From Halolamina litorea (GTDB taxonomy: Archaea; Halobacteriota; Halobacteria; Halobacteriales; Haloferacaceae): 64,000 nucleotides of DNA. Below the pieces are notes generated by a model that worked only from the letters and a program-made list of their open reading frames with translations, made no database searches and was not told the DNA's origin. Below, piece after piece: positions 1,526-45,750 of this stretch (position 1 is the stretch's first letter; each line of letters starts with the position of its first letter). Where the stretch lies: NCBI RefSeq assembly GCF_026616205.1, contig NZ_JANHGR010000001.1:558001-622000 (forward strand), given 5' to 3'. The translations under genes were made by a program, and so were the position numbers.

Positions 1526-4442
1526 CGCTCACCCCCTGTCCCGCCTTGTTCAGGCCGGGACCGGCGTACTCCGAGATGTTGGTCTCCTCCTGCTTCTCGC
1601 CGAGGAAGCGAGCCTTCTGGTCCTCGCTGCTGAACTCGGCGTCCAGCACGCGCTGGGTGATCGCCTCCACGTCGACGGGGTCGTCCTCGTCGTAGGCGAC
1701 GTTGACCGGCGAGGTGCCGTCCTCGCCGAACTCGAACTGGACGACGGTGCCGGAGGTGTCCCGGACGGTGCCGTCGTACTGCGCTTCCAGTTCCGAGAGC
1801 GCGTTGATGAGGCGGCGCTGGAGGTAGCCGGACTTCGAGGTCCGGACTGCCGTGTCCACCAGCCCCTCGCGGCCACCCATCGCGTGGAAGAAGAACTCAC
1901 GCGGGGTCAGCCCCGAGCGGTAGGAGTTCTCGACGAAGCCGTGGGGCGCCGCCGAGAGGTCGTCGCGCTTGTAGTGGCTGAGGGTGCGGTCCTCGTAGCC
2001 ACGGTTGATGCGCTCGCCACTGACGGTCTGCTGGCCGACGGAACCGGCCATCTGGGTCAGGTTCAGCATCGACCCACGTGCACCGGAACGGGCCATGACC
2101 ACGGCCGGGTTGTCGTCGGCGAAGTAGTCGTCGGCGATCTCCCCGGCGGAGTCACGCGCCTTGCCCAGCGTCTGCATGATCTTCAGTTCGAGCGTCTCGT
2201 CGACCGTTCGGCCGGGGATCGAGTTGAGGTCCCCCGCACGGTAGGTCTCGATCAGCTCCTCGATGCGCTCGTGGGCGTCGTCGATGGCTTCGTCGACCTG
2301 CTCGCCCGCCGCGGCCGGGATGGACTCGTCGTCGATCCCGATCGAAAACCCGAAGTGCATGATCGAGCGCATCGCGAGCGTCGCCACCTCGTTGACGAAT
2401 ACGCGTGCGCGCGTCTTCGAGTACTCCTTGGTGATCGTGTCGACGATGTCGCCACCGAACGCACCGACGGCGCCCTCGTCGATCGTCCCCTGGATCAGCT
2501 GTCCGTCCTCGATGACGACCTCGTCGTCGGCCTCGGAGATGAACTCGAGGTTGAGGTCGTCGGGGAGGAGCTCCGAGAACACCGTTCGGCCGGTCCAGTA
2601 CGGCTGGCCGTCCTCCTCGCCGTCAGCCTCGGGCAGCTCGTCGACGCTCGTCGCACGGAGCAGGTCCAGCGCCTGGTTCTCCGAGAACGTCGGGTTGTTC
2701 CGGGTCAGCAGGTAGGTCCCGCTGATGTGGTCCTGAATGGCGCCGATGATGTTCTTCCCGAAGCGCGGGCTGAGCATCTGCTCCTGAACGCGCATCAGGA
2801 CGCGGGCCTCCGCACGGGCCTCCTCGTTCTGGAGGGCGTGCATGTTCATCTCGTCGCCGTCGAAGTCGGCGTTGTACGGCGTACAGACCGTCGTGTTCAG
2901 GCGGAACGTCTTGTACGGCATCACGACGACCTCGTGAGCCATGATCGACATCCGGTGCAGCGACGGCTGTCGGTTGAACACGATGATGTCGCCGTCGGTC
3001 AGGTGCCGGGAGACCTCCCAGTCGGGCTGGACCTTCTCCGCGAGCTCCTCACAGTTCTTCTCGGTGACCTTCAGTCGGCGGCCGTCGGGCCGCTTGACGT
3101 AGTTGGCGCCGGGGTGGCCCTCGGGGCCGTTCCGGACGTAGGTCCGTGCCTCCTCGATGTTGCGCTCGGAGACGTTCATCGTCTGGGTCATCTCTCGCGC
3201 GACGCGCTCGGGGACGCCGACCTCGTTCAGCGAGAGCGTCGGGTCCGGCGAGATCACGGTACGCGCCGAGAAGTTCACACGCTTACCCGAAAGCGAGCCA
3301 CGGAAGCGACCCTCCTTCCCCTTCAGTCGCTGGGAGAGGGTCTTCAGCGGCCGCCCCGACCGGTGCCGGGCCGGCGGCGTCCCGGAGATCTCGTTGTCGA
3401 CGAACGTGGTGACGTGGTACTGGAGCAGCTCCCAGAGGTCCTCGATGATCAGCTGGGGCGCACCCGCCTCGCGGTTCTCCATGAACCGCTGATTGATACG
3501 GATGATGTCCACCAGCTTGTGGGTCAGGTCGTCCTCGGAGCGCTGGCCGTTGTCCAGCGTGATCGAGGGACGAGTGGTGACCGGCGGGACCGGCAGCACC
3601 GTCATGATCATCCACTCGGGCCGGGAGGTCTCGGGGTTGACGCCGATGTTCGCCAGGTCCTCGTTCGGGATGTCCTCGAACCAGTCCCGGATGTCGCTGG
3701 GCATCAGCTTGTTCTCGTCCTCCTCGGTGAGGTCGATGTCCAGCGCCTTCTCGAGTTCCTTGCGGTCGTCCTCGCGGGGACGGAACTCGCCGCTCAGGAT
3801 GTCGTTGACGCGGTCGAGCGCGATGCCGGTCCGGTCGGCGAGGTCGGTCGGGGCCATCCCCTCCTCGTCCTCGTCGTCGGGCTGCATCGCCTCGGCGATC
3901 ATGTCCGAGTACTCGCCGGCCAGCACGTCCTGTACCTCGTAGTAGGTGGTCGGCTTCTCGTGTTTGATGTCGTACTGGGTCTCGCCACAGTACGGACAGC
4001 GGGAGGCCTTCCGGGCCTGTCGGATCGCGGCCTTGAGCACGTCGTCGGGGTCGTCGCCGAGCTCCTTGGCGCGCTTCAGTCGCTCCGCGTACTCGGCCTG
4101 CTCGTCCTCGGTGAGCGAGAGGCGGCCGCAGTCACGGCAGGTACCGCGCAGCAGGCGGCGGATCAGCTTGGCGAAGCCGACGTGGATCACCGGCGCCGCG
4201 AGCTCGATGTGGCCGAAGTGGCCGTTACACGAGCCCGAGTGCTGACCGCAGGTTCGACACTCCAGCCCGGGGTCGATGACCCCGAGTCGGGGGTCCATGA
4301 GCCCCATGTCGATGGGGTAGCCGTCGTCGTCGTACGTGTCGGCGGTGATCACCTTCGTCGCGGACATGTCCCGGTACGTTTCCGGGTCCATCAGGCCGAA
4401 GCTGATCTCGCCGATCTCCTTGGGTGAGCCTGAGATTGACAT
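1518..4442 (-). CDS. rpoA1: DNA-directed RNA polymerase subunit A' (Rpo1N)
   Basis: N-terminal part of the split largest subunit, 974 residues. It carries the catalytic Mg-binding motif [10 protein letters not shown] (about residue 520). The clamp zinc sites are intact: [17 protein letters not shown] near residues 62-79, then CRDC and CPYC pairs further on. RQPSLHRMS and [12 protein letters not shown] are further signature blocks. The start ATG lies immediately after the rpoB1 stop (adjacent bases), and the 3' end overlaps rpoA2 by 8 nt. No intein or frameshift is visible. The retained zinc cysteines contrast with their loss in RpoB1 and TFB in this same window. Confidence 0.98.
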
Positions 4443-44371: not shown

Positions 44372-45352
44372 TTAGAACGAGACGTCCAGGTCCAGCGCGT
44401 CCATCTGCTCCTTGTAGCGGTTACGGATCGTGACGACGGTCACGTCAGCGATGTCGGCGATCTCGCGCTGTGTCCGCTGGTCCGAACAGACCAGCGACGC
44501 CAGGTACACCGCGGCGGCGGCGAAGCCGGTCGGCGACTTGCCGGCGTGGAGACCGAGTTCGGTCGTCTCTTGGACGATCTCGGCGGCCTTCTGTTGGGTC
44601 GTGTTCTCGAGGTCGAGTTCGCTCGAGAACCGCGGGATGTACTGGCCCGGCTCGACGGGCTTGAGCGAGAGCGATAGCTCCTCGCTGATGTATCGGTACG
44701 AACGGCCGATCTCGCGGCGCTCGACTCGGGAGACCTTCGTCAGGTCGTCGAGGCTGCGCGGGATGCTCTCCTGTCGGCAGGCGGCCATCAGGGACGCAGT
44801 CCCCATCCCCTCGATGGAGCGCCCGCGGATCAGGTCACGATCGAGCGCCTGTCGGTAGATCACGCAGGCGATCTCACGGACCGACTTGGGCACGCCCGTC
44901 GCGCTAGCCATTCGGTCGATCTCCGCGAGTGCCTGCTGGAGGTTCCGTTCGCCGGACTCCTGTGTTCGGATACGCTCCTGCCACGTACGTAGCCGCTGCA
45001 TCCGGGAGCGCTTCTCCGCGGAGAGCTGGCGGCCCGAGGCGTCGGTGTCGCGCCAGTCGATGTCGGTCGTGAGACCCTTGTCGTGGCGGGCCTGCGTCAT
45101 CGGCGACCCGACGCGGGATTTGTTCTGTCGCTCGGAGTGATCGAACGCGCGCCACTCGGGCCCGTGATCGATGTTCTCTTCCTCGACGATGATCCCCGTC
45201 TCCTCGTGGACCAGTTCGCCCTTGTCCGTGCGGACGAGTTCGTCCTCGTCGATGTCCTCGGCGTCGAGGGTTTCGACCTCGTCGTCGAAGCGGTCGTCCG
45301 TTCGCTGGCGGTGCTCCTCTCGGCCGTGGGCTCGCGATTTGGGCTGGGTCAC
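44372..45352 (-). CDS. tfb: Transcription initiation factor TFB lacking zinc-ribbon cysteines
   Basis: A 326-residue archaeal TFIIB homologue. The B-reader region (DHGPEWRAFDHSERQNKSRVGSPMT, here residues 62-86) and two cyclin repeats (from ERNLQQALAEIDRMASATGVP and SPTGFAAAAVYLASLV) are intact, with a C-terminal HTH-like TVVTIRNRYKEQMD. The N-terminal zinc ribbon that docks RNAP is recognisable in register, but its CxxC-x15-CxxCG ligands are D30, D33, H49 and T52. Starts with GTG 45352. Haloarchaea carry several TFBs, so this may be a specialised one. Confidence 0.95.
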   Translation of the reverse strand: MTQPKSRAHGREEHRQRTDDRFDDEVETLDAEDIDEDELVRTDKGELVHEETGIIVEEENIDHGPEWRAFDHSERQNKSRVGSPMTQARHDKGLTTDIDWRDTDASGRQLSAEKRSRMQRLRTWQERIRTQESGERNLQQALAEIDRMASATGVPKSVREIACVIYRQALDRDLIRGRSIEGMGTASLMAACRQESIPRSLDDLTKVSRVERREIGRSYRYISEELSLSLKPVEPGQYIPRFSSELDLENTTQQKAAEIVQETTELGLHAGKSPTGFAAAAVYLASLVCSDQRTQREIADIADVTVVTIRNRYKEQMDALDLDVSF

Positions 45353-45391
45353 TGATCTGGGTTTGAGGTCGTCGCCGCACGCTGCGTTGAC

Positions 45392-45474
45392 ACGTCGACT
45401 GCTTCGACGTTCGGCCCATCCGGGCCATCGAGACCTCCGTCCCAGTGTCGGACGGCCCCACTAGTTCCGTCCGA
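45392..45474 (-). promoter_or_regulatory. Structured 5' leader of tfb: three hairpins
   Basis: Between the TATA-like element near 45527 and the GTG start lie three perfect inverted repeats: ACGTCGA/TCGACGT (45392-45398, 45404-45410), GGCCC/GGGCC with a 4-nt loop (45413-45417, 45422-45426), and an 8-bp TCGGACGG/CCGTCCGA (45448-45455, 45467-45474). A transcript starting near 45502 would include all three. They may form a regulatory leader controlling TFB translation or stability. Confidence 0.45.
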
Positions 45475-45524
45475 GAGAGTGAGTTTGCATTCCGGCATTA
45501 CACAGATGAGTAAGTTTTGCTACG

Positions 45525-45530
45525 GTATAA
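45525..45530 (-). promoter_or_regulatory. TATA-like element of tfb
   Basis: On the minus strand TTATAC follows the A-rich GGGGAAATCC, a possible BRE. Transcription would start near 45502, about 150 nt before the GTG codon, unusually long for a mostly leaderless genome. The same string read on the plus strand could serve the other direction. Confidence 0.45.
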
Positions 45531-45750
45531 GGATTTCCCCGGAGCGCACTCAGTGATAACACCGATTGAGCGCTTCTAACCCACGAATTCAGCGATAACG
45601 AGATATCGGTTAACACCAGCCTACCCGCTTCCGTACGGCGAGTAGGCGGTTACTACTGCTGTGCTAGCATGGGTCATGGTCGGAACAGAACTAAGTAGTG
45701 GGGCTTCACAGGTGCAAGCAGGTCGAACGATGCGTTCCAAGACAGCCACA

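Follow-up and report, generated by a model that had tools for sequence, protein, structure and literature searches.

A transcription factor B (TFB) of 326 aa, encoded at 44372..45352 on the reverse strand of the window (the 64,000-nucleotide stretch of Halolamina litorea DNA analysed here), carries an N-terminal ribbon that lacks all four zinc ligands; domain and tree evidence assign it to a group of Cys-less paralogues termed here ‘type II’. In archaea and eukaryotes alike, docking of RNA polymerase is attributed to the zinc ribbon of TFB/TFIIB. The analysis described below makes it probable that the window protein is a functional TFB in which this ribbon is present in a metal-free version.

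Two stretches of the window TFB match PF00382 (TFIIB cyclin repeats; E 3.8e-43), the NCBIfam TFB model covers residues 30-325 above its cut-off, and a Foldseek search recovers TFB and TFIIB, with the Pyrococcus TFB core 1d3u as the top structural match. Both cyclin-like repeats expected of the TFB/TFIIB family are present, as is the B-reader/linker (residues 64-110; 45023..45163, reverse strand), a conserved segment with the invariant pattern GPEWRAF...KSRVG...P.T...HD.GL.T.I.W, of which the GPEWRAF...KSRVG region is common to the window TFB and to four-Cys TFBs. The remaining family feature, four Cys/His ligands in an N-terminal zinc ribbon, is absent: the Pfam model Zn_Ribbon_TF (PF08271) aligns with residues 42-70 only and falls below its cut-off, and the ribbon contains zero cysteines. 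The initial annotation, which described a normal B-reader and cyclin repeats combined with a ribbon devoid of cysteine, was correct on both points. By core, reader and NCBIfam model the protein is classified as a TFB, but one without a canonical zinc ribbon.

A sequencing error or a wrongly called start is ruled out as the source of the missing cysteines. The GTG start codon is the earliest start available downstream of the preceding stop, and the closest orthologue, from the independently sequenced Halolamina salifodinae DSM 26232 (91% identical), also has a Cys-less ribbon, as do more than 50 other TFBs. The initial annotation had allowed that a corrected read or an alternative start might restore the cysteines. 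The genome from which the window derives encodes nine full-length TFBs: besides the window TFB, its paralogue L002 is also Cys-less, and the other seven have an intact CxxC...CxxC ribbon. A viral or plasmid origin was also rejected, as the top phage matches are just 23-28% identical and the plasmid matches are related TFBs. The nearest plasmid ribbon match, from Natrinema (H46), proved to be canonical, with an apparent frameshift in the record. On the Natrinema thermotolerans plasmid CP031304 (L112, ∼ 2900-3000), the TFB is annotated with a late start because the record seems to be frameshifted inside the CPEC knuckle.

The register of the ligand columns was taken from an alignment of 53 Cys-less with 28 canonical four-Cys TFBs, in which the columns fall on A31, I34, H49 and T52 of the window TFB. 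Among the Cys-less proteins P, L, V or A predominate in column 31, and column 34 holds V, L, I, F or M. In column 49, H is present in 49 sequences and D in the other 4 (Halosegnis-type sequences and one more); in column 52, all sequences have T except one with S, giving 52 of 53. Moreover, the strands predicted for a construct of L003, a four-Cys paralogue from the same genome, at residues 23-25 and 32-34 match those at 39-41 and 47-49 of the window TFB, so that positions 31 and 34 correspond to the first pair of canonical Cys, in agreement with the alignment. The ligand positions had initially been read as D30, D33, H49 and T52. Indeed, H49 and T52 are the third and fourth columns, but the first pair is A31/I34, and D30 and D33 lie one position off the ligand columns, within a strongly acidic stretch. 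The unchanged spacing that had been remarked upon says little, since the separation of the Cys pairs in canonical haloarchaeal TFBs itself varies from 13 to 16 residues. When the original register is applied, 25 of 59 rows show D/D/H/T; as three rows are duplicate Halolamina loci, this amounts to 23 of 56 distinct loci. The ligands themselves are all-or-none: each of the 53 and 28 aligned TFBs has either zero or four. This distribution, together with conservation across most of the family, indicates that the Cys-less state exceeds chance.

The conserved ribbon hairpin (residues 39-62; 45167..45238, reverse strand) is preceded by acidic pentads (EVETL DAEDI DEDEL, residues 25-39; 45236..45280, reverse strand) that include D30 and D33 and stand where a canonical ribbon has its first zinc knuckle; across the Cys-less TFBs this replacement comprises one to five pentads of the form D-x-x-x-[VIL]. 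At L002 and other type I loci, as described below (for example L051, L069 and L022), the number of tandem copies ahead of the hairpin ranges from one to five among close relatives, in the manner of an expanding and contracting repeat.

The same alignment bears on whether any metal is bound. A different metal site formed by the two Asp, the His and the Thr, as first envisaged, is not borne out: D30 and D33 are outside the ligand columns and unconserved (D33 is Gly in H. salifodinae, giving D/G/H/T, and position 30 is non-acidic in some Cys-less relatives), and in several relatives Asp takes the place of H49. The ribbon might instead bind metal weakly, or at a different site, via H49 and nearby acidic residues such as the near-invariant D35. 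Here the strong conservation of H49 (49/53), T52 (52/53) and D35 (kept in 52 of the 53) is in favour, and the retention of H49 and D35 beyond the needs of a wholly metal-free ribbon makes weak metal binding possible; the Haloferax TFE-alpha ribbon, with a single Cys, does bind zinc weakly (PMC5861453). Even so, such a site is considered unlikely, given that hydrophobic residues or Pro occupy both ligand columns of the first knuckle, that Asp replaces H49 in the sequences listed above and position 30 is not always acidic, and that acidic residues abound in the tail, which makes their conservation weak evidence. A metal-free ribbon in a specialised TFB, also put forward at the outset, is the better supported of the initial readings on account of the hydrophobic residues in the first two columns, the purifying selection and the way in which type II has altered its BRE-reading helix, as described below.

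A profile of the Cys-less N-terminus was run over 292 genomes of the order, and the scores fell into two separated groups, the high group being Cys-less and the low group four-Cys wherever inspected. Within the window's family a DNA pattern for the hairpin had matches in at least 134 of the 151 genomes, representing 23 of 25 genera, with 0 matches for the reversed pattern used as control; the figure is a lower bound, since G074 and G183, whose Cys-less copies read GDL and not GEL, were missed. Outside the family a Cys-less TFB was present in 5 of 222 sampled genomes, as counted by hand from the best profile score. The hairpin pattern had no match in four other genomes of the window's own genus (G001, G003, G005 and G006) or in genera g17 and g18, which suggests that a Cys-less TFB of this pattern is not essential everywhere. 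By these counts, carriage of a Cys-less TFB is the rule within the family, and the window gene is no lone oddity. The state is at the same time not general among haloarchaeal TFBs, a prospect that had been raised as an objection: four Cys are present in seven of the nine TFBs of the window genome and in those that were inspected from other families.

The majority of Cys-less loci sit in one common neighbourhood, termed ‘type I’. In other families the type I neighbourhood holds a four-Cys TFB (L098, L099, L100, L104 and L110), and in Natrinema thermotolerans a four-Cys TFB lies in this neighbourhood beside PadR and rnhA-operon genes. The presence of four-Cys TFBs at the syntenic locus indicates that the Cys form is ancestral and that, on synteny, the loss is derived. 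A single clean clade for the loss was not recovered on a core tree built without the ribbon, in which ribbon types and cores are mixed. This mixing is likely to result from gene conversion between TFB paralogues, a process reported for Halobacterium (as cited in PMC7865254). A separate case is L107 (G206:C30), a four-Cys TFB at an L003-type locus whose core groups with the Cys-less type I cores of its genus (L069 and L070); here gene conversion is likely to have swapped the core and kept the ribbon.

Summed pairwise dN/dS values (Nei-Gojobori; the pairs are non-independent and the values hence descriptive) were 0.15 for the type I ribbon and 0.29 for the type II ribbon. Canonical ribbons from the same group gave 0.33, and the tail immediately preceding the Cys-less ribbon gave 0.85 (type I) and 0.65 (type II). 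As judged from substitution patterns, the Cys-less ribbon is under purifying selection and is clearly not decaying. A non-functional, drifting domain might have been suspected from the loss of all four ligands, which could look like decay, and from the existence of relatives without any Cys-less gene. It is contradicted by the selection data, with 0.15-0.29 in the ribbon against 0.65-0.85 in the adjoining tail, and by the occurrence of the motif in 134 of 151 genomes; together with the start-codon and orthologue evidence that excludes an artefact, this renders decay or error highly improbable. The predicted fold is consistent with a retained hairpin: AlphaFold2 returned a beta-hairpin for the Cys-less ribbon with mean pLDDT 76-84, and the canonical ribbon (L003 construct, modelled from a different alignment) gave 47-62, a comparison that is not strict; both models contain no metal, and the confidence depends on the alignment.

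On the core tree the window TFB falls in the type II group together with sequences from Halolamina, Halobaculum, Halobium and Halosegnis (support 94/88, not starred). Type II evolves faster than type I, with a core dN/dS of 0.26 vs 0.07. Its specific changes include Y106S, which lies in the B-reader/linker, K123T, K131Q and L269H, plus Q303D and E306V in the helix-turn-helix at residues 303-311 (44420..44446, reverse strand), which we take, from established knowledge of TFB/TFIIB, to be the BRE-reading helix. The changes in this helix suggest that type II has an altered promoter (BRE) preference. A nucleotide pattern derived from this helix proved too strict for mapping the clade.

Fast evolution of type II and its changes in the B-reader and BRE-reading helix would also fit a factor that docks RNA polymerase abnormally, acting on TBP-DNA as a competitor or promoter-specific modulator with poor polymerase recruitment, or with recruitment via other contacts, the more so as canonical TFB/TFIIB contacts the dock mainly through its zinc ribbon (PMC7865254). 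Against this, the hairpin and reader are conserved under purifying selection and have many residues in common with canonical TFBs, and in almost every genome of the family type I still occupies the locus that ancestrally belonged to an ordinary TFB. Abnormal docking is thus considered improbable, and retained docking by a metal-free ribbon is preferred.

The TFB gene is preceded by a leader ORF of 49 aa (MPECKLTLSDG...; 45349..45498, reverse strand), the TGA stop of which overlaps the TFB GTG start (GTGA). A putative BRE/TATA promoter element, GGGGAAATCCTTATA (45526..45540, reverse strand), lies 33 nt ahead of the leader ORF start, and in six loci (the window, L011, L012, L015, L043 and L047) the distance from the start of a TATA-like element to the leader ATG is exactly 33 nt. 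The first 60 nt of the leader ORF are 100% identical between the window and H. salifodinae, with 77-97% identity in TFB coding windows and mostly 40-53% farther upstream. Similar leaders starting with MP precede the Halobaculum orthologues. The constant position of the TATA-like element suggests that translation of the leader ORF probably starts on a leaderless transcript, with translation of TFB coupled to it, and the leader ORF may provide translational or RNA-level control of TFB. Structure in the leader RNA is modest in the window (z -2.0) and was absent from the two Halobaculum-type leaders examined. The leader ORF was also considered as a repeated or known element; it is single copy in the window genome and has no convincing relatives beyond the orthologous loci.

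In the model that best accommodates these data, acidic pentads would have supplanted the first zinc knuckle, leaving hydrophobic residues in its ligand columns, and hydrophobic packing and the pentads, in place of zinc, would stabilise the hairpin at high salt concentrations. The beta-hairpin, which is predicted to fold without metal, would retain RNA polymerase docking, and initiation by a Cys-less TFB would in consequence be independent of zinc and of free thiols. The window copy, as a type II protein, would be a further specialised paralogue with a changed BRE preference and control by the leader ORF. A broader proposal, which is advanced tentatively, is that nearly the whole family initiates some of its transcription through a TFB in which the docking ribbon has gone from zinc-held to metal-free and salt-stabilised, giving zinc- and thiol-insensitive initiation beside the ordinary zinc-dependent TFBs. 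A natural, conserved, ligand-free ribbon separates the ‘ribbon fold’ from ‘zinc’, and so makes the real requirements of docking testable. With a Cys-less TFB in nearly all family genomes, the puzzle of why haloarchaea have many TFBs also becomes testable on one chemical axis, that of metal and thiol dependence; the genetically tractable Haloferax is presumably among the genomes that carry one.

The four-Cys paralogue L003, which by resemblance is a putative member of the TfbB/D/F-like group of haloarchaeal TFBs, has the same B-reader, cyclin repeats and overall length as the window TFB and is ∼ 62% identical to it over residues 11-321. It differs in having CPEC...CDDCG, whereas the window TFB lacks the four ligands, has acidic pentads for the first knuckle and carries the type II core changes. 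No description of Cys-less TFBs was found in the open-access literature, which was partially covered, and the main text of earlier haloarchaeal TFB phylogenies does not mention zinc (PMC4230888). The nearest precedent for the ribbon is Haloferax volcanii TFE-alpha, likewise an archaeal initiation factor with a zinc ribbon whose ligands were lost in haloarchaea: three of the four Cys are lost, zinc binding is weak and the protein is still functional (PMC5861453). TFE-alpha is, however, a separate factor that retains one Cys and weak zinc binding, and coupled loss in the window genome is rejected, as its TFE-alpha has kept four Cys. The closest functional analogy is provided by the zinc-independent paralogues of ribosomal proteins, of which PMC13343924 and PMC7363858 give examples. 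Bacterial C- paralogues such as the alternative L31 and L36 are Cys-free copies beside Cys-bearing ones, much as two Cys-less TFBs accompany seven four-Cys TFBs in the window genome; they are typically induced by zinc limitation. A difference is that the type I TFB has taken over the very locus of the Cys form.
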